DNA from: an uncultured Opitutia bacterium
GTDB taxonomy: Bacteria > Verrucomicrobiota > Verrucomicrobiia > Opitutales > CAJWYM01
Direction of reading: 5' to 3'
DNA length: 61,833 nucleotides
NCBI GenBank assembly: GCA_913049555.1
Contig: CAJWYM010000009.1
Span: 1 to 61,833 of the forward strand
Shown here: positions 2,219 to 45,383 of the stretch, piece after piece
Layout: each line of letters starts with the position of its first letter
Numbering within the stretch: position 1 is the stretch's first letter
Made by a program: the position numbers and the translations under genes
Notes under the pieces: model-generated
Database searches by the model: none
What the model saw: only the letters and a program-made list of their open reading frames with translations
Told to the model about the DNA's origin: nothing

Positions 2219-3301
2219 TTACCTTTTATTTTGAGTGGTCTCACGATGCACCAAGTCTACATGAATTTTATCAAAGACCTCTTTTTCCAAATCGTTTTGT
2301 ATGACATGAATCGTTTGGTTGGCCATCTCGACGAAATTTTGTTCAAAGCCGGAAATAGAAAGATTTGAAAATCTGGAAATTTCAGTCACATCATAACCAA
2401 TTACCTGAGTGTCATGAGGAACTTTTTTTCCGAGATTATCTAAACTGTTTGTGACAATTATAGAAGAACGCTCGTCTAAACAGAAGAAAAGCTCAGCATC
2501 GGAGTGTTTTGAGATTTCTTTGTGAAGATGATTGGCATCGTTCAAATAATTTTTACTTTCTAAAACTTCAATGCGAGTTAGATCTTGCAGTAAATTGCCG
2601 CTTTCCATCCAAATATGTTTGAATCCCTCATACCTAAGTTCTTTGTGAATCCAAGGTTTGTTGTTGTCTCTTGAGAACGAAACGATTGCGGCTTTTTTTA
2701 CGGTCGATTTATTTGCATGTCGGGCCGCTTCTTGTCCGCTTTTAAAACTATCAGGATTTATGATGTGGGAACACTTCATAGCATAGTCGACATTGAGACC
2801 CATGATTTTACAAGGGCTGTTTTTGATTCGTTCAAAAACTTCACTTACATCCCCTGTCAGAAGGATTAGATCCTTTTCTTCAAGTTTTTGATAGTCAATG
2901 TTGTCATTTAGGGAATTATAGACTTCGAGTTGAAGTTCTATATCAATGGCTTTCAGCTGTTGCTGTAGACGAAAAAAGAGTTCTTGGTGCCGAGGAAATC
3001 GAATATAGGCAGATCCGTTTGTCACCATAGTTACAGACATGCTTTTAAAAACAAGTTGTTGCACTGAATCCGAGAGACGATACCGGCCATTTTTTTGAGC
3101 GGTGAGCCATTTTTGATTTTCTAGTTCTTTCAGTGCAAGCCAAGTGGTTTGTCTATTAAATTGGAGAATTTCTGAAAAGACTCGAACAGAGGGTAGGTTG
3201 GTTTCTGCTTTTACTGCCCCTGTTTTGATTTGTTTTGCAATGGCATGAATTGCTTTTTGTAAATTCTTTGGCAAATGGGATATTTCAAAGTCAACAGACA
3301 T
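2219..3301 (-). CDS. GntR/LacI-type transcriptional regulator
   Basis: A 360-residue cytoplasmic DNA-binding regulator. Residues about 8-80 form a GntR-type winged helix (AIAKQIKTGAV, LPSVRVFSEIL, then QTTWLALKELENQKWL and the wing NGRYRLSD). Residues about 90-350 look like a periplasmic-binding-protein-type sensor as in LacI/GalR proteins, ending with the DTQVIGYDVTEISRF segment typical of such sensors. The arrangement matches the GntR subclass with sugar-sensing LacI-like domains (AraR type). It is divergent from the sulfatase gene at 3514 and probably controls it in response to a sugar. The inducer is unknown. The shared 200-bp region contains a 12-bp perfect palindrome. Confidence 0.8.
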   Translation of the reverse strand: MSVDFEISHLPKNLQKAIHAIAKQIKTGAVKAETNLPSVRVFSEILQFNRQTTWLALKELENQKWLTAQKNGRYRLSDSVQQLVFKSMSVTMVTNGSAYIRFPRHQELFFRLQQQLKAIDIELQLEVYNSLNDNIDYQKLEEKDLILLTGDVSEVFERIKNSPCKIMGLNVDYAMKCSHIINPDSFKSGQEAARHANKSTVKKAAIVSFSRDNNKPWIHKELRYEGFKHIWMESGNLLQDLTRIEVLESKNYLNDANHLHKEISKHSDAELFFCLDERSSIIVTNSLDNLGKKVPHDTQVIGYDVTEISRFSNLSISGFEQNFVEMANQTIHVIQNDLEKEVFDKIHVDLVHRETTQNKR

Positions 3302-25931: not shown

Positions 25932-28205
25932 ATGAAAATTAGAAAATTTTTTACTATGACTCTTCTATTGTGGGGTTTCTTTCCATTTTTGACTCTGTTT
26001 TTATTATCGAAACCAAAAATAAAAGAATCATTGAATCATTTACAAACGATTGAGGATTCAGTTCTGAGTAAAAATACTTATTATTTAGGACCGGATGGGT
26101 CGGATCAAAATATGGGCACTATGGAGAAACCTTTTAAATCAATTAAAAAAGCTTTAGAGGTTCTGAAAGCTGGAGACACTTTATATTTAAAGGAAGGGCG
26201 TTACTTTGATACCCTAGACCTTGGGTCTTTAAGCGGTGGGGACGATTCCCCAATTGTAATTGCCGGGATAAGTCCAGAAAAGGTGGTGATTGATGGAAGA
26301 GATTGTTTGGATTCACAATTGTGGAAGCAGGAGGGAAATGATATTTATTCCATTTCAGTCAACGAACATTTTCATTCTCTGCTAACAAGACAAGATGCCA
26401 TGCTTTTTGTTGAGAATGAACCTTATGTCGAAGCAAGATGGCCAAATATGCGTTACAATGAAAATTGGAACCCTAGGAAAAAGTGGGCTCAATTCGATAA
26501 AAACGCTAGCTCTTATGGAAAGATAATTCAAGAGGAGGTTGCAAAATTAGGTGTGGATTTAACCGGGGCTAAATTACATTTGAAGTATGTTTCTAATTTT
26601 ATCGGAACTCGTAAAATTACCCACCACGAAGCTGGGTCCAATCAAATTTCTTATGAAAAAAAATTGTTTTGGGGAAAACCAGACTATCCAGAATTTGTAC
26701 GAGGCAAAGGGCATTATGAGGAAAAGTTCTTTGTGAGCGGAGCTAGGTCTTTACTCGATTCAAAAGGAGAGTGGCATTATGATCCTGATAAAAGAATTTT
26801 GTCTGTGATCTTTGCCGAGGGCCAATCTCCTAATAAAGATTTTGTTTACATAAAATCTAGGGATTATGGAATTCATTCGATTGATTCCAAAAATTTGCAT
26901 TTGAGAGATTTATTGTTGTTTGCAACCAGTATTCAGCTGGGTGGAGTCCAACAACCCATTTTGGATAAGAAATTAAATCCTAAGTTTAATAAAAAAGGAG
27001 AACCTATTTATCATTTAAGTTTGTGTGATCGACTGAAAATCAAAAACGTTCATGCAATTTACACAAGTGCCTCCAATTCTTATTTTTCTGCTCGAGCCGA
27101 TGTTCTAAGACCTGCCCACAATCCTTTAAACACCTCGCCTCTAGTTGTAGCTCAAAACAGCCGAATTGAGGACTGCGAGTTTGGGTGGTCTTATTACAAT
27201 GGTTTCAGATTGATCGGAAGAGGGAATGTGATGACTCATTGCGTAATCCACAATTCTTCTCTAGACGGATGGATGGCAAAGTCAGGGATCTATCTACGCT
27301 ATGGATACCGAGGCTCTTATACCACGGAACAAGCCAATACAATTGAATCTTGTACCTCTTTCAATTCAGGAGGCGTTGCTATGTACCATTATGGGCCAGG
27401 ACCCAATCACCTCATAAAGAATCATTTTTTCAATGCGGGTATTTATTCTGGAGATATATCTGGAACCTATTTGCCCTACGGGAAACGAGCACAAGGTTCT
27501 ACAATTGCCTACAATTGGGTGCATGCTATTCGGGGAATCGGAATGCGTTGTGATAGCTGGGGCGATGAGATTTATGTTCATCACAATGTAGTCTGGAATG
27601 CTCAGGCGGGTTGTAAGTGGCAGGGGCAAAAACCCTTATTCATTTACAACAATACTTACTTCGTAAACAATCAAAAATCCCCTTTGATGTTAGCAGAAAT
27701 GACCAACCCCAAGGAGGGGGTTATCCAAGGAGCCGATCATGTTGGAAAAACTTGGCATGTAATGAATAATGCTTCTTATGATTTACTCTATCGCTATCCG
27801 GGTTTTTATGTCAAAGAACAACGAACTGTTGGAAATCGTTTGAAAAATTTTTACAGATACCAAGGAAAACAATCCGATCATTTCCATTCAAACAGAACGT
27901 GGAAGGATGGGGACGAGAAAGAACTTTTTGTTTCAACAGATTTAAAGACTATTGATTTAAGACCCAGAGAGGGATCCCCCTTGATTGATAGTGGAAAATA
28001 TGTAGAGGGGATCACTCTTAATACGCTAGATGAACCTGATCAAGGTGCCTATGAGTTTGGTGGAGAATACTGGATACCTGGTGCGAATTGGATGCCTACT
28101 GGATACTCGGTGCCAAAATCAATGGCGGATGCAGTAGAGTTGTCTTCTCAAGCGATTGGCCGTGCTTGGATTTTTTTTCAAGGGGAAGCTTATGCTGATA
28201 AATGA
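25932..28205 (+). CDS. secreted right-handed parallel beta-helix protein
   Basis: A 757-residue exported protein. The N-terminus has a hydrophobic segment (FFTMTLLLWGFFPFLTLFLL) that is either a signal peptide or a membrane anchor. The PDGSDQNMGTMEKPFKSIKKAL segment is the usual opening of beta-helix polysaccharide-binding or -cleaving proteins (pectate-lyase-like and DUF1565-type). Repeated coils with short Asn/Gly-rich turns (RIEDCEFGWSYYNGF, NTIESCTSFNSGG, YNWVHAIRGIGMRCD, VHHNVVWN) cover about 380-620. Family members are lyases, hydrolases or surface adhesins; catalytic residues cannot be assigned here. Its 3' end overlaps the convergent kinase gene by 16 bp. Confidence 0.8.
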   Translation: MKIRKFFTMTLLLWGFFPFLTLFLLSKPKIKESLNHLQTIEDSVLSKNTYYLGPDGSDQNMGTMEKPFKSIKKALEVLKAGDTLYLKEGRYFDTLDLGSLSGGDDSPIVIAGISPEKVVIDGRDCLDSQLWKQEGNDIYSISVNEHFHSLLTRQDAMLFVENEPYVEARWPNMRYNENWNPRKKWAQFDKNASSYGKIIQEEVAKLGVDLTGAKLHLKYVSNFIGTRKITHHEAGSNQISYEKKLFWGKPDYPEFVRGKGHYEEKFFVSGARSLLDSKGEWHYDPDKRILSVIFAEGQSPNKDFVYIKSRDYGIHSIDSKNLHLRDLLLFATSIQLGGVQQPILDKKLNPKFNKKGEPIYHLSLCDRLKIKNVHAIYTSASNSYFSARADVLRPAHNPLNTSPLVVAQNSRIEDCEFGWSYYNGFRLIGRGNVMTHCVIHNSSLDGWMAKSGIYLRYGYRGSYTTEQANTIESCTSFNSGGVAMYHYGPGPNHLIKNHFFNAGIYSGDISGTYLPYGKRAQGSTIAYNWVHAIRGIGMRCDSWGDEIYVHHNVVWNAQAGCKWQGQKPLFIYNNTYFVNNQKSPLMLAEMTNPKEGVIQGADHVGKTWHVMNNASYDLLYRYPGFYVKEQRTVGNRLKNFYRYQGKQSDHFHSNRTWKDGDEKELFVSTDLKTIDLRPREGSPLIDSGKYVEGITLNTLDEPDQGAYEFGGEYWIPGANWMPTGYSVPKSMADAVELSSQAIGRAWIFFQGEAYADK

Positions 28206-28705
28206 TCGAGAACGGACTGGACTCTTTGCTCCAAGTTTCCTTTAAGAGGGATAAAATTAATTTTGTTATTTTCTAATATTTGTTCGAATTTGCATTGCAG
28301 TTGTTCCCTTGCTTTCTGACTTTCTCGTTGTCCAGGGTCGGAGACCCATGGAAAATCTGGTTGACACAAAAAATAAAAATCGTAGCGAGTTTTCCGGAAT
28401 TTCCGATCGATCCAATCGATTTGCTTTTGAAAATAGTGATCCGCGTATAGAATCGAGGAAAGAATATTTGTGTCATGAAATGAGAAGCGATTGGCATTTT
28501 TACAGGCTTTTTGCTCATTGGCAAACTGACCTTTGCCAATGATTTCTAAATCCTTTACTTTTAATTCTCGATTTATCCTTTGCACATATTCCCGAACGTA
28601 TTCATTCGAATAGGGCTCGCCAAATCTTTTAGCAAGCGCTCTTGTAAGGGTGCTTTTACCCGTGCACTCGGCACCTGTAAAAACAATTTTTTTTACTTTG
28701 CACAT
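28190..28705 (-). CDS. NadR-like P-loop kinase (putative vitamin kinase)
   Basis: A 171-residue cytoplasmic P-loop protein with Walker A GAECTGKSTLT and an early EYVREYVQR element, matching the AAA_28/ribosylnicotinamide-kinase-like domain of NadR but without the adenylyltransferase half. It overlaps the pnuT-like gene by 13 bp, so both are almost surely cotranscribed. In NAD salvage such a domain phosphorylates nicotinamide riboside. Here the adjoining TPP riboswitch and TonB receptor point instead to thiamine or a precursor as the substrate, trapping it as the phosphate. That is an inference from context; the alternative is a nicotinamide riboside kinase. Confidence 0.75.
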   Translation of the reverse strand: MCKVKKIVFTGAECTGKSTLTRALAKRFGEPYSNEYVREYVQRINRELKVKDLEIIGKGQFANEQKACKNANRFSFHDTNILSSILYADHYFQKQIDWIDRKFRKTRYDFYFLCQPDFPWVSDPGQRESQKAREQLQCKFEQILENNKINFIPLKGNLEQRVQSVLDHLSA

Positions 28706-29280
28706 GATAGATTGCTGTTTTTTAACTCTTTATTCCAGCTTAGGAAACCTTTAGTGGCTAAAAAGATGAATACAACAAACATAATGACCGTTGCATAATA
28801 ACCCTGAAAACCCCACAAAATTATAAAACAAAGGTCTGCAACAATCCAAAAGATCCAATTTTGAAGGATCTTTTTACCGAGCATCCATTGAGCTATGAAG
28901 GATAAGGTTGTTGCAAAGGCATCTAGATAGGGAAGTGCACTTTTAACAAAGCTAGAAAGAGTGAAGCCAAGAATCAAAGTTCCTAGAATGGCAATTAAAA
29001 TAATTCCGGTCAAATTCTTAGGACTTAAAGACTGGATCGTCGATTTCTCATTGATGGAACTTTTGGATTCATCTTTTAAATTCTTCCATTGAATCCAACC
29101 ATAAATGGATATGGGTATAAAACAGGCGTTGAGAACCATCGCTGCATATAAATCGGCTCGAAAACTAAGAATAATATACACACAATAGCAAATTATAAAT
29201 AGGGGCCAGGCTAAGATTTTTTCTTTGATGCTAAGAGATACACCGACAAGACCGGCGATGGTTCCAAGCCACTCAATCAT
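28693..29280 (-). CDS. pnuT: PnuC-family transporter, likely thiamine-type PnuT
   Basis: A roughly 195-residue inner-membrane protein with about seven hydrophobic helices. I chose the ATG at 29280 because AAGGA lies seven bases upstream; the ATG at 29316 has no such site. The start IEWLGTIAGLVGVSLSIKEKILAW and YCVYIILSFRADLYAAMVL match the PnuC fold of vitamin facilitators. PnuC takes nicotinamide riboside and PnuT takes thiamine; the two are close and the choice of PnuT rests on the neighbouring TPP-riboswitch-controlled TonB receptor. No second riboswitch lies on this gene's own strand, so its control is unclear. It overlaps the kinase gene by 13 bp. Confidence 0.75.
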   Translation of the reverse strand: MIEWLGTIAGLVGVSLSIKEKILAWPLFIICYCVYIILSFRADLYAAMVLNACFIPISIYGWIQWKNLKDESKSSINEKSTIQSLSPKNLTGIILIAILGTLILGFTLSSFVKSALPYLDAFATTLSFIAQWMLGKKILQNWIFWIVADLCFIILWGFQGYYATVIMFVVFIFLATKGFLSWNKELKNSNLSCAK

Positions 29281-29369
29281 GGATGTTTCCTTGAATTGTA
29301 AAATAATTGTTTCCATAAAGGATCATAAGAAATAAAAGACATCGTTCTGTCCATCCTGAAAAATCACTG

Positions 29370-29398
29370 TTGACATCGAATGGATTAAAAAGTCTAAT
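29370..29398 (+). promoter_or_regulatory. sigma70-type promoter of the TPP riboswitch transcript
   Basis: A perfect -35 box TTGACA (29370-29375), a 17-bp spacer and a -10 box TCTAAT (29393-29398, one base from consensus). The expected start point, about 29405, coincides with the 5' edge of the TPP aptamer, so the transcript would begin with the riboswitch. Confidence 0.75.
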
Positions 29399-29402
29399 CG
29401 AG

Positions 29403-29502
29403 TTTCCTTAGGGGTGACCTGTATGGTCTGAGATGTTAAATTGTCCTCCAATTTGCGATCCCTTTGAACCTGATACGGTTGATACCGACGTAGGGAAAGG
29501 AT
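29403..29502 (+). promoter_or_regulatory. TPP riboswitch (THI element)
   Basis: The aptamer's conserved blocks appear in order: GGGGTG near 29411, CTGAGA (29429-29434), then CCCTTTGAACCTGATACGG and the TACCGACGTAGGGAAAGG block. P1 arms TTCCTT (29404-29409) and AAAGGA (about 29496-29501) pair. TPP binding should reduce expression of the TonB-dependent receptor gene starting 70 bp downstream, probably by hiding its ribosome binding site, since no T-run terminator is seen between them. Confidence 0.93.
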
Positions 29503-29571
29503 TGGAATGTTTTAGGGTACACATTCTTCTCTGCGTTGTTATTGACTCAAATTAAATGTGAGTAGCAAGCA

Positions 29572-31689
29572 ATGAAACCGATGAATAAACTTGGAAATGC
29601 AATTACTGGATCGATCTTCCTTATTGGTAGCCTATACGGTCAGTCTGATAATGATCCTCAATACAACGATATCCTTCAATTAGAAGAATCTGTAGTTACG
29701 GGACTTCTATGGGAATCCGAATTACAAAAGACAACTGCGAGTGTATCTGTATTGGAAAAAGAAAGTTTTGAGGCTAGCGGAGCCCAACATTTAGAGGACA
29801 TTGTCAACAATATCTCCAATTTGACTTGGACGGGAGGTACTTCTCGACCCAGATACATTCAAATCCGAGGGATTGGTGAGAATTCTCAATTTGAGGGGGA
29901 GACTCCTGATTCGTCAGTCCGATTCTTGGTGGATGATTTTGACTTTACTGGATTGGGAACGATTGGAAATCTTTTTGATTCCAAGCAAGTTGAAATCTTG
30001 CGTGGTCCTCAAGCAGGATCCTTTGGTGTAAATGCTGCGGGTGGAGTTGTGAAAATTGTGACAGAAGACCCGACTCCTTACTGGACTGGAAAAGTTGAAA
30101 GCACTGTTGGGAGTGATCACTTGCTTGCTGGAGGATTTGCAATTGGGGGACCCATTCTGGACGATCGCTTGACTTTTAGAGCTCACCTTTATCAGTTGAA
30201 TCAAGATGGTTTTAAGAAAAATAGATTTTTGAATAAAGAGGACACAAATAAAAGGGATGAACTCAATTCACAATTAAAAATTCGCTGGAAGCCGAGTGAG
30301 GAATGGACCTTGGATGGCGCTTTTTTCTATGCGGACTTTGACAATGGCTATGATGAATTTGTTCTAAGCAATCATAACGAAAATTCATTTTCTGATCAGC
30401 CTGGAAAAGATCAACAAGAAAGCTTTGGAACAAGCCTTAGAGCAAAGTTTACAGGTTGGGATCTCGCTGCAGTCACCTCTGTTACTCAGTTGAATCATAG
30501 CGATATAGAATATAGCTATGATTCCGATTGGGGAGCTGGAACGAATATATCGGGAGCTGCTAGTAGTGGCTACTCAGGGTTTATGTATCTGGAAAAAGAA
30601 CGGGATGTTTTTTCACAGGAAATTCGATTGGATTCAAGCGACTTAAAAAACAAATTAGAGATAGTAGATCGATGGACCGTTGGTTCCTATTTGAGTCAAA
30701 TGGAAGAAAAAAGTGTTTTTGATTACGTGGATGAGTTTGGAACTGGAGCAGGTAGTTCCAGTTATGAAACAAAATCGATCGCTTTTTTTGGAAAAATTGG
30801 CAAAGACTTTTCCTCTTCCACGAGAATCCAGTTCGGAGCAAGAGCAGAGTATCATGATGTTCACTTACAATCCAAAGTCACTGAAGATTATTATGGATCT
30901 TTGGTCTCAGGAATTGTTGATTCAGGGAAAGAGAATCTCTTATTTGGAGGCAAAATTACTTTGGAACAGGACTTGAATGAGGATCATTTGCTTTTTATAA
31001 GTGCTGCTCGTGGTTACAAAGCTGCAGGAGCTAATAATGGAGGATTCCTGTCAGTCGGTGATTCTAACTCTTATGATGAGGAGACGGTTTGGAATTATGA
31101 GACAGGAATTCGCAGTTCGTTTGCTGAGGGTAAGATTTCCTCTAAATGGACTGCTTTTTACATGGATCGTCAGGATGCACAACTTCGAGATTCCTCAGGA
31201 TCGGGTGGTTTTTTCCGCTATTTTACCTCAAATCAAGGGAGTGCTCAGCATTATGGAATTGAATCCGAGATCCTTTGGTATGCGAATCAAAACTGGTCCT
31301 TCAGTGGAGGGCTAGGTTTGATGGAAACGGAACTAGAGAATACTAAAAGAGAAATCTCAAATTCTCCAAGTTACACCTACAGTTTACGAAGTGATCTTAC
31401 TTTGGAAAATGGGTTTTTTGCGAACCTTGAATACGTAGGCAGTGACAGTTATTTTGAATCCAACAGTCACAATGAAAAAAGAAGTGCTTACAATGTTTTA
31501 AATGGGGCCTTTGGGTATGAATACCAGAACTGGAAATTGACTCTTTGGAGTAGAAACATTCTAGACTTTGACTACGAAGATCGAATCTTTTTGTTCGATA
31601 ATTATGACCCCTTCAATCCTGGTGTTCAAAGATATGAAGGTTCAGCAGCTCCCAGACAGTTTGGTGGCACACTCAATTATGCTTGGTAG
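29572..31689 (+). CDS. TonB-dependent outer membrane receptor, likely for thiamine
   Basis: A 705-residue outer-membrane receptor. After a signal peptide (GNAITGSIFLIGSLYGQS) comes a short TonB-box-like stretch (EESVVTGLL), a plug domain (about 45-165: TTASVSVLEKESFEASG, RYIQIRGIGENSQF, VEILRGPQAGSFGVNAAGGVV) and a 22-strand-type barrel ending in a C-terminal aromatic residue (NYAW). It is preceded by a TPP riboswitch and ends in its own terminator. In Bacteroidota and related groups TPP-controlled receptors import thiamine; the same role fits here. A pnuT-like transporter and a kinase lie divergently next to it. The TonB/ExbBD energiser must come from elsewhere. Confidence 0.88.
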   Translation: MKPMNKLGNAITGSIFLIGSLYGQSDNDPQYNDILQLEESVVTGLLWESELQKTTASVSVLEKESFEASGAQHLEDIVNNISNLTWTGGTSRPRYIQIRGIGENSQFEGETPDSSVRFLVDDFDFTGLGTIGNLFDSKQVEILRGPQAGSFGVNAAGGVVKIVTEDPTPYWTGKVESTVGSDHLLAGGFAIGGPILDDRLTFRAHLYQLNQDGFKKNRFLNKEDTNKRDELNSQLKIRWKPSEEWTLDGAFFYADFDNGYDEFVLSNHNENSFSDQPGKDQQESFGTSLRAKFTGWDLAAVTSVTQLNHSDIEYSYDSDWGAGTNISGAASSGYSGFMYLEKERDVFSQEIRLDSSDLKNKLEIVDRWTVGSYLSQMEEKSVFDYVDEFGTGAGSSSYETKSIAFFGKIGKDFSSSTRIQFGARAEYHDVHLQSKVTEDYYGSLVSGIVDSGKENLLFGGKITLEQDLNEDHLLFISAARGYKAAGANNGGFLSVGDSNSYDEETVWNYETGIRSSFAEGKISSKWTAFYMDRQDAQLRDSSGSGGFFRYFTSNQGSAQHYGIESEILWYANQNWSFSGGLGLMETELENTKREISNSPSYTYSLRSDLTLENGFFANLEYVGSDSYFESNSHNEKRSAYNVLNGAFGYEYQNWKLTLWSRNILDFDYEDRIFLFDNYDPFNPGVQRYEGSAAPRQFGGTLNYAW

Positions 31690-42557: not shown

Positions 42558-45383
42558 TTATTGGAGTAAAATGAGGCGGATAGAATCTAGTCTAAGATGC
42601 GTATCTTTTAAATGATCCTGAGTGTCCTTCAACTTGTTTTCCAATTGATCAATTTCTTTGGAAGAAATGTGGTCATTCACCTTTTGTAAATGGATCAATC
42701 GATCGATCTCCTCGTTCAATTCATCGGAAGCTTGGTCTATGGAATCTTCTATAAGGATTGCTTTGTTCTTACGGGCAATATTACGAGCCTTTTTAATTTG
42801 ATTGGGTATGATTGTTTGTAAGAGCGACTTGTGTTGTTGAAGCAATTGAAGAGGTCCATTTTCCAAATGTAGATTCAATTGTGAGTGATTGAAATCTTGA
42901 GTCACTTCTTCAAACTCATGGTTGACGAGAACTCTAATAGGAGTGGGCGGTAGGAATCTATCAATATGAAGACTTTTAGGAGCTGGGCACTCAGCGATGA
43001 ATACACTCTCTATCAAAAACCCTGGTTTGCCACTTTGAGGGTAGATACAGAAGGAACTGTTGCCTTTTTCCTCTCCTAATAACATTTGAAAAGCACCTAC
43101 TACCATTGGATGATCTGCTGTAATAAATTGTATTTCATCTCGAGTAATGGCTCGCTCTCTTTTAAAGGTTATCAATATTCCCTCATTGGGAATCCCGGGA
43201 AAGGCTTCCATGTATCTTTCAGTGGGGGTCAATTTGTACAAGGAGGCGTCTAATTCCTCTGCCTTAACTCCAAATAATTCAAATAAATCTAACAAAATGC
43301 TTTCCAGCTTTTTGTTGCCATCAAGGGCTCGTATTTCTTTCACTAACAATTTAGCTTTTTTAGAATCATACGAGTTGAGCTCCAACAGTCGATCTCTTCC
43401 CGTTTCTAATTTTACTTGAAGTTCTTTTTTAAACTTTTTGGTTTTCTTAATGAGCTTTTCTAATCCCTTCAAGTCCTTAGATTTGACAATTTCTTTCAGG
43501 GATTCACCAAACTCATTGCTGTAAACACTCCCTCCAGTCAGAATACTTTTAAATGCATTCAAACCTTCGTTGTACCATCGCAATAGATATTCTGCTCCAC
43601 AACCTTGAATATAGGGAACATGGATTTGAATCGTTTCTGTTTGTCCAATCCTGTCCAATCGCCCGATTCTTTGTTCCAACAACTCTGGATTGGTTGGAAT
43701 ATCAAAGAAAATGAGATGATGGGCAAATTGAAAGTTCCGTCCCTCACTTCCAATTTCGGAACAAAGCATAATTTGCGCGCCCTCTTCCTCTGCAAAATAA
43801 GCAGCATTGCGGTCTCGTTGAAGCAGCTCTAAATCCTCATAAAATAATGCAATGTTAATGTTGATTTTATCTTTAATTGCCTCATTGATGGCGAACACCT
43901 TTTCTCGGGTTCTGCAAATTAATAGAGCTTTGGAGTCCTTGTTCTTTCTCAACCAATCTACCAGCCAATCGATTCTATCATCTGCGGAGTAATCGATGTC
44001 AGAGAGCTCCTGATGCGCATGATCGAGGTCAAATTTCAATTCCTCTTCGATATTCTCAATCGTGCTCTTTTTAGCAGAAGTGATTTCATCTAAAACAAGT
44101 TTTCTCTTGGGGAATCCTTTAATAGTAGAACGGGTATTTCTGAAAATAACTCGTCCAGTTCCGTGTTGATCCAAAAGATTTTCTATCAGCTGAGTTCTTG
44201 ATGCGGTTTTCCCGGACTCAGCCTCAGCCAGCAGTTTTTCTATCTTGTGCCTTTCGTGCTTACAAATCGTTAGAAGCAAGTCTTTTTGTTTTTCACTCAG
44301 TGCTTTTTTCTTGATAATTTCATTTGCGATCAGAGCGACCTCGTTGTAATGCAAAACTTCTTCATTGTAGAGCTCCAAGCTGTGAAAGCGGTCTGGATCT
44401 AATAATTGCAGCCTTGCAAAGTGCCCATTACCCCCTAGTTGCTGAGGAGTTGCAGTTAAGAGTAAAAGCCCCTCTGAATCTGCACTGACCTCCTTCACTA
44501 AGTCATATTCCGGACTGCTTTTTTCTGGCTCCCAATCTAGGTGATGGGCTTCATCAACAATGACTAAATCCCATTCTGCATGGATTACTTGATCAGAGCG
44601 TGAAGGATTGTTTGCCAAATAATCAAGTTGTGCAATGACCAATGCATCCTCTAAGAAAGGGTTTGTATCTGGTTGTGTCTCTTGAATGGCATGGCATCGA
44701 TCCTCATCAAAGATCTGAAAATGTAAGTTAAACTTCCGATAGAGCTCGATAAACCATTGATTTATTAAATTTTCAGGAAGTAGAATTAGGACTCGACGAA
44801 CTTGACCACTTATATAGAGGCGGTGAAGAATCAAAGCCGCTTCAATGGTTTTTCCCAACCCGACTTCGTCACAAAGCATGACCCTTGGGATTTGTTTTTC
44901 GGAAACTTCATGTGCAATGTAAAGTTGATGCGGTATTAGGTCAATCTTCGCACCTGTAAATCCTCGGTATTCAGACTCTTGGATTTGTGCATACTCTTGG
45001 TTGATCTTGTAACGAAGTTCAAAAATCTCTTTTTCATCTGTAATTCCTGCAATCAATCGATCTTGAGGCTTGCTGAAACTAATGCTGTCATTGAGCTCTG
45101 TTTCGTGTATCCGAAGGTCTTGATCTGTAAGATAGGTAAAAAGGTCGTTTTCTTCAAGAACGTCCTCAATCAGATGTTCCTTATTAGAATGATCTTTAAT
45201 GTTGTCCCCTTTACTGAATTGAACCCTTTTTAATGGGGTAGAGCTGGTTGAATAGTTTCTGGTTTCACCAGAAGCGGCGAAGTAAATGCAAACAATCCTA
45301 GGATCTACCTCTTTTACTGTTCCCATACCTAATTCAGGCTCCATTTCACTAATCCATCGTTGTCCAGATACGTATTTGATCAT
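42558..45383 (-). CDS. rapA: RapA-like SNF2 ATPase, RNA polymerase recycling factor
   Basis: A 941-residue Swi2/Snf2 ATPase. It starts SGQRWISEMEPELGMGTV, as in RapA, with Tudor-like N-terminal strands, then the helicase core: Walker A DEVGLGKTIEA (about 170), DEAHHLDW (about 277), LLLLTATPQQLGG, and C-terminal helicase motifs in CSEIGSEGRNFQFAHHL, FDIPTNPELLEQRIGRLDRIGQ. The last 300 residues include the RapA C-terminal domain. E. coli RapA (968 residues) releases RNA polymerase stalled on DNA or in tight complexes. It is transcribed divergently from HU and is monocistronic. Confidence 0.9.
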   Translation of the reverse strand: MIKYVSGQRWISEMEPELGMGTVKEVDPRIVCIYFAASGETRNYSTSSTPLKRVQFSKGDNIKDHSNKEHLIEDVLEENDLFTYLTDQDLRIHETELNDSISFSKPQDRLIAGITDEKEIFELRYKINQEYAQIQESEYRGFTGAKIDLIPHQLYIAHEVSEKQIPRVMLCDEVGLGKTIEAALILHRLYISGQVRRVLILLPENLINQWFIELYRKFNLHFQIFDEDRCHAIQETQPDTNPFLEDALVIAQLDYLANNPSRSDQVIHAEWDLVIVDEAHHLDWEPEKSSPEYDLVKEVSADSEGLLLLTATPQQLGGNGHFARLQLLDPDRFHSLELYNEEVLHYNEVALIANEIIKKKALSEKQKDLLLTICKHERHKIEKLLAEAESGKTASRTQLIENLLDQHGTGRVIFRNTRSTIKGFPKRKLVLDEITSAKKSTIENIEEELKFDLDHAHQELSDIDYSADDRIDWLVDWLRKNKDSKALLICRTREKVFAINEAIKDKININIALFYEDLELLQRDRNAAYFAEEEGAQIMLCSEIGSEGRNFQFAHHLIFFDIPTNPELLEQRIGRLDRIGQTETIQIHVPYIQGCGAEYLLRWYNEGLNAFKSILTGGSVYSNEFGESLKEIVKSKDLKGLEKLIKKTKKFKKELQVKLETGRDRLLELNSYDSKKAKLLVKEIRALDGNKKLESILLDLFELFGVKAEELDASLYKLTPTERYMEAFPGIPNEGILITFKRERAITRDEIQFITADHPMVVGAFQMLLGEEKGNSSFCIYPQSGKPGFLIESVFIAECPAPKSLHIDRFLPPTPIRVLVNHEFEEVTQDFNHSQLNLHLENGPLQLLQQHKSLLQTIIPNQIKKARNIARKNKAILIEDSIDQASDELNEEIDRLIHLQKVNDHISSKEIDQLENKLKDTQDHLKDTHLRLDSIRLILLQ

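Follow-up and report, generated by a model that had tools for sequence, protein, structure and literature searches.

In work of Jaehme dating from 2018, which is cited in PMC7749635 and PMC7221760, the PnuT carrier of Shewanella woodyi reportedly allows facilitated diffusion of thiamine, and Pnu carriers reportedly depend on phosphorylation to trap what they carry. In Bacteroides thetaiotaomicron a thiamine route is made up of OMthi, PnuT and tnr3, the last a gene of the thiamine pyrophosphokinase (TPK) type (PMC5613172), and the enzymes listed for the salvage of vitamin B1 are ThiK, ThiM and ThiN (PMC6593275).

The locus described here lies in a stretch of 61,833 nucleotides (the window) from an uncultured Opitutia bacterium (contig CAJWYM010000009.1). 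As in the Bacteroidetes OMthi-pnuT-tnr3 loci, of which split versions also occur, a TPP riboswitch, a TonB receptor, a Pnu carrier and a putative thiamine-phosphorylating gene are brought together (PMC5613172). Unlike those loci, it has no thiamine pyrophosphokinase gene and would use instead a ThiL-dependent P-loop kinase of the NadR family, and its genes are divergent, with the riboswitch over the receptor only. The carrier resembles PnuT of S. woodyi in its Pnu family, in its thiamine context and in the metabolic trapping expected of it. The kinase is like the ribosylnicotinamide kinase domain of NadR (8x7f, 1lw7, 6gye) in fold, in its P-loop GxExxGK and in its DT motif; unlike NadR, it stands alone without an NMN adenylyltransferase domain, carries a motif of its own (HDTN..S...YA..YF) and is found in a thiamine context. 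With enterobacterial ThiK (YcfN) it would share the proposed reaction, from thiamine to thiamine monophosphate (TMP) followed by ThiL, but ThiK belongs to an unrelated, choline-kinase-like family (TIGR02721).

We consider it highly probable, from genome content and comparison, that the locus gives a thiamine auxotroph its complete route for taking up and trapping the vitamin, in which a NadR-family kinase makes TMP. The TonB receptor, for which we propose the role of a thiamine receptor like OMthi/Omr1, would take thiamine across the outer membrane, and the Pnu-family carrier would allow its diffusion through the inner membrane; the kinase would then convert thiamine and ATP to TMP, so trapping it, and ThiL, encoded elsewhere, would convert TMP to TPP. 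Binding of TPP to the aptamer would reduce receptor synthesis, most likely at the level of translation, by way of a hairpin that covers the ribosome-binding site, and the carrier and kinase would be transcribed from a promoter of their own, outside the riboswitch. The route as such is known, and what is new is the enzyme that would phosphorylate thiamine; earlier mention of it in databases or in older comparative genomics is possible. A literature search, made largely outside subscription journals, found no paper joining a NadR-like kinase with thiamine, or NadR with PnuT.

Layout of the locus and probable control of the receptor

The aptamer and the three genes named in the initial annotation were recovered by profile searches. 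On the plus strand, a TPP riboswitch aptamer at 29400-29513 (RF00059, 73.3 bits against a gathering threshold of 54.3, E 1.5e-12) precedes the gene for a TonB-dependent outer-membrane receptor of 705 aa at 29572-31689 (Plug domain PF07715, E 1.3e-14). Back to back with these, on the minus strand, lie the genes for a Pnu-family inner-membrane carrier of 207 aa, the proposed PnuT, at 28693-29316 (PF04973 NMN_transporter, E 1.2e-49) and, overlapping its end by 13 bp, for a NadR-like P-loop kinase of 171 aa, the proposed thiamine kinase, at 28190-28705 (AAA_28, PF13521, E 3.4e-35). The end of the kinase gene overlaps tail to tail, by 16 bp, a gene for a large right-handed beta-helix protein at 25932-28205.

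The promoter of the receptor occupies 29370-29398 on the plus strand (TTGACA at 29370-29375, 17 bp, TCTAAT at 29393-29398), and the expected transcription start, at about 29404, falls just inside the 5' end of the aptamer. The claim of a near-consensus promoter starting on the aptamer is supported by the alignment, in which TTGACA at the -35 position is invariant in all eight leaders; a rule-based promoter scan passed over this promoter because its rule calls for A as the second base of the -10 element. The aptamer is the sole riboswitch in the window and the sole TPP riboswitch in the whole genome, and a search of the minus strand of the window for a TPP aptamer found none, so that within the window the receptor alone is under the riboswitch, as had been supposed. 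A TGGACA box on the minus strand at 29348-29353, kept in most of the aligned leaders, is a possible -35 element for the transcript of carrier and kinase.

A candidate expression platform, found by eye, is a hairpin at 29542-29568 on the plus strand, UUG-ACUCA...UGAGU-(AG)-CAA, which spans the GAG ahead of the receptor AUG. The leaders of nearly all of 19 relatives likewise end in a hairpin right before the start codon, with the common form GGAUCUCAA/UUGAGAUCC, in which 93% of cells are paired and, in single lineages, both partners of three pairs have changed; three such pairs were also reached in 5 of 500 shuffles. The 5' arm of this hairpin, CCGGAUC, can instead pair with GAUCCGG of the aptamer (97% of cells, near perfect in the 19 relatives), and since the arm is shared the two states would be exclusive. 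As an established switch this alternative pairing was set aside and is kept as a suggestion, for its covariation is weak and its letters are lost in the window, where the hairpin occupies the same place as in the relatives with other letters. No intrinsic terminator was found in a search for one. The conserved hairpin before the start codon and the alternative pairing in the relatives make translational repression of the receptor by TPP, with a hairpin closing off the ribosome-binding site, the likely mode of control.

Occurrence of the locus in other bacteria

With an alignment of the kinase, 330 relatives were found among 84,980 species genomes, and 80 of them were retained. A survey of neighbourhoods for the pair and TPP aptamers, which the initial annotation had suggested, brought to light the divergent arrangement of riboswitch and receptor against carrier and kinase in eight loci (L127, L128, L129, L131, L132, L133, L135 and L136) and one single run in an acidobacterium. 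The hosts of the eight are Opitutaceae ANT-100, Puniceicoccaceae K14, Opitutales SI072_bin25, Verrucomicrobiae DG1235, Opitutales UBA5694, two Pelagicoccus and Opitutales MAG.200, and their receptors, at the same place, are 44-52% identical to that of the window; receptors behind a TPP riboswitch elsewhere in other Opitutales are 39-56% identical over the stretch seen. In the acidobacterial MAG (L180) a riboswitch at 3034-3126, a TonB receptor, a Pnu carrier and the kinase follow one another on one strand in one apparent operon, which ties the carrier and kinase, beyond the receptor, to TPP. The L180 kinase has DTD instead of HDTN and falls outside the well-supported clade described below. The relatives in Bacteroidota and spirochaetes (L175-L179, L181-L206) were not counted as thiamine kinases, as no TPP riboswitch was seen nearby and three are fused to NMNAT.

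Within the order, 177 Opitutales genomes were searched with the kinase, and 30 match at E 1e-8; in all 20 neighbourhoods drawn from the stronger matches the kinase is beside or near a Pnu gene. The close kinase type is present in 15 genomes, including that of the window. A TPP riboswitch was found in every one of 20 Opitutales genomes searched, and wherever the contig continues in close-type genomes, a TPP riboswitch precedes a receptor homologous to that of the window. Nine further genomes, 94-99% complete (G111, G010, G132, G064, G161, G078, G142, G170 and G099), each have ThiL, one TPP riboswitch and a carrier-kinase pair elsewhere in the genome; in all seven whose contig runs on past the riboswitch, a receptor homologous to that of the window follows it, and in G132 and G161 the contig stops there. 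In family f11 of the Opitutales the carrier-kinase pair lies behind thrH and a gene for a Dabb-domain protein, with no riboswitch nearby. Many relatives have the pair in a thrH operon apart from the riboswitch, which supports the earlier suggestion that carrier and kinase may be controlled differently from the receptor. Examples of this conserved run, in the order thrH (phosphoserine phosphatase/homoserine phosphotransferase), Dabb gene, pnuT and kinase, are L034 4380-6448, L037 6676-8751 and L038 4506-6614. Three genomes with a thrH-linked pair (G032, G048 and G089) have thiC. Others, such as G034, G113 and G040, have a riboswitch-controlled receptor, but their sole carrier-kinase pair comes from other branches; G034 (L050, L118), a complete genome, gave no match to ThiC, ThiE, ThiL or TPK.

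The carrier and the kinase clade

The carrier is the only Pnu-family gene product of its genome. Its structural model (pLDDT 89) has PnuC (4qtn, TM 0.77) as the sole significant match in the PDB, and the PnuC sequence model TIGR01528 matches it with 99 bits against a cut-off of 42. It thus has the Pnu fold and the family profile (PF04973) expected of PnuT, and its gene is linked to thiamine genes and to a TPP riboswitch, which adjoin it here and in the eight named relatives. From this context we infer that the carrier is a PnuT with specificity for thiamine. The D of a W..W...D motif in the carrier was discarded as a thiamine marker, since it is also found in Bacteroidota and in a pair with NAD genes as neighbours.

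The match of the kinase to NadR covers only the kinase half (positions 162-318 of TIGR01526), with 92 bits against a cut-off of 341 for the full-length protein, and is not fused to an NMN adenylyltransferase domain. It has the RNK-domain fold and a P-loop; its model (pLDDT 92) is closest in the PDB to the NadR kinase domain 8x7f (TM 0.92), followed by 1lw7 and 6gye/6gzo. It belongs to PF13521 and does not match the ThiK profile TIGR02721. In a maximum-likelihood tree, nine kinases linked to a TPP riboswitch fall within a set of 12 rows (support 100/100), itself nested in a set of 51 rows (100/98) of kinases linked to a pnuT-type carrier. NadR references, NMNAT fusions and kinases in a PncA context, among them the NAD-context pair discussed below, lie outside the set of 51, and neither the tree nor the clade residues group the window kinase with NAD-pathway kinases. 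In the clade motif HDTN..S...YA..YF, HDTN occupies residues 77-80 of the kinase; H77, D78, T79, N80, S83, Y87, Y91, Y108, C114 and Q126-R127 are common to all 48 members of two close groups. H77, N80, S83, Y87, Y91 and Y108 differ in the NAD-type set, chiefly at 77 (C, I or L), 80 (D or S) and 83 (T, A or V). HDTN was not retained as a universal thiamine marker and is limited to the Opitutales-type clade, the riboswitch-linked L180 kinase having DTD. An HDTN-type kinase with a Pnu carrier, and no TPP riboswitch nearby, was also seen outside Opitutales in an uncultured proteobacterium (L169) and in another bacterium (L170). A search of plasmids gave only about 29-34% identity among the matches listed.

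Thiamine and NAD genes and the proposed substrate of the kinase

The genome that holds the window, of a marine-type bacterium, is a 3.1 Mb assembly and 95% complete. Profile searches gave no match to ThiC or ThiD in it, and the organism should therefore rely on imported thiamine; the check for missing thiamine biosynthesis that had been called for left a single orphan ThiE/TenI-like gene, with 126 bits below the ThiE cut-off of 145. That gene (contig C4 of G000, 43247-43882; L114) overlaps a gene for a Fur-like regulator. ThiL is present above cut-off, and ThiK (TIGR02721) gave no match in this genome; TPK (PF04263) was found neither there nor in 20 relatives by profile searches of draft genomes, and a TPK gene could lie in the missing part, about 5%, of the host genome. 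With ThiL and neither TPK nor ThiK, the NadR-like kinase is the only known candidate for the step from thiamine to TMP (EC 2.7.1.89) in an auxotroph that keeps ThiL. It is also the one clear NadR-like kinase of the genome, where other matches are weak and partial. The nine further Opitutales genomes agree, profile searches having found ThiC, ThiE, TPK and ThiK in none of them, and ThiL is kept in every examined genome with a clade kinase.

It might be argued that the pair is an ordinary PnuC with a nicotinamide riboside kinase, serving NAD salvage and lying by chance beside a thiamine receptor, while other proteins handle thiamine. Sequence models do name the two proteins PnuC and NadR-like, the nearest solved structures are of PnuC and NadR, and in many relatives the pair is unlinked to a TPP riboswitch. 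However, ten genomes of thiamine auxotrophs would then all be without any known thiamine kinase, and the linkage to the riboswitch recurs in the eight named relatives and in the acidobacterial single run. NadA is present throughout, and its presence in the host genome indicates de novo NAD synthesis, so that the organism should not need to take up nicotinamide riboside. Moreover, G032 and G048 have, besides a close-type pair, a second and distant carrier-kinase pair, orthologous between the two genomes, which in G032 (L048 2825-6215; L082 in G048) adjoins nicotinamidase-like, NUDIX hydrolase and ADP-ribosylglycohydrolase-like genes and whose kinase has DTS where others have DTD or DTN. NAD salvage thus exists beside the proposed thiamine route, each with a carrier-kinase pair of its own. 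A carrier falling inside PnuC with NAD genes had been named beforehand as what would count against a thiamine route. The window carrier is not such a case, and the NAD-context pair of these two relatives proved to be a different, distant paralogue. We therefore regard NAD salvage as an unlikely function of the pair.

Action of the kinase on a precursor or breakdown product of thiamine (HMP or thiazole), for salvage of precursors and not of intact thiamine, is very improbable. It would give a place to the ThiE/TenI-like gene that the host genome keeps, but there is no ThiD in that genome, and in the nine relatives with the same pair, which lack ThiE, the joining of phosphorylated precursors would be impossible. 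The fold of the kinase is like that of nucleoside and nucleotide kinases, whereas ThiD and ThiM have the ribokinase fold. That the kinase is a thiamine pyrophosphokinase, forming TPP in one step as a full replacement for TPK, is hardly credible, for although it sits where tnr3 does in the Bacteroides locus, NadR-type kinase domains transfer one phosphate, and the ThiL retained alongside the clade kinase would be dispensable. The outer-to-inner membrane thiamine route with trapping by a NadR-like kinase, as first put forward, is supported by the auxotrophy, by ThiL in a genome with neither TPK nor ThiK and by NadA; the divergent relatives, the L180 run and a kinase clade separate from both NadR and the NAD-salvage pair also point to it.

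We think it probable that stand-alone NadR-family kinases of Opitutales and, separately, of Acidobacteriota provide a third bacterial entry for thiamine besides ThiK and TPK, unscored in surveys of B1 dependence. Such surveys of gut and marine bacteria score ThiK, ThiM, ThiN or listed transport genes (PMC6593275, PMC12236431, PMC10881298), and the marine papers among these place Verrucomicrobiota among the B1 producers. If our reading is right, annotation would assign a thiamine kinase to NAD metabolism and call its carrier PnuC, and thiamine-dependent Verrucomicrobiota could be misread in such surveys. It offers a candidate enzyme for the missing step, a motif by which to recognize it and, since Pelagicoccus and Coraliomargarita are in culture, relatives in which it can readily be tested. 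In Pelagicoccus SDUM812005 (L133 2032-5239), genes for a second TonB receptor and for one membrane protein are inserted between the two halves of the locus.
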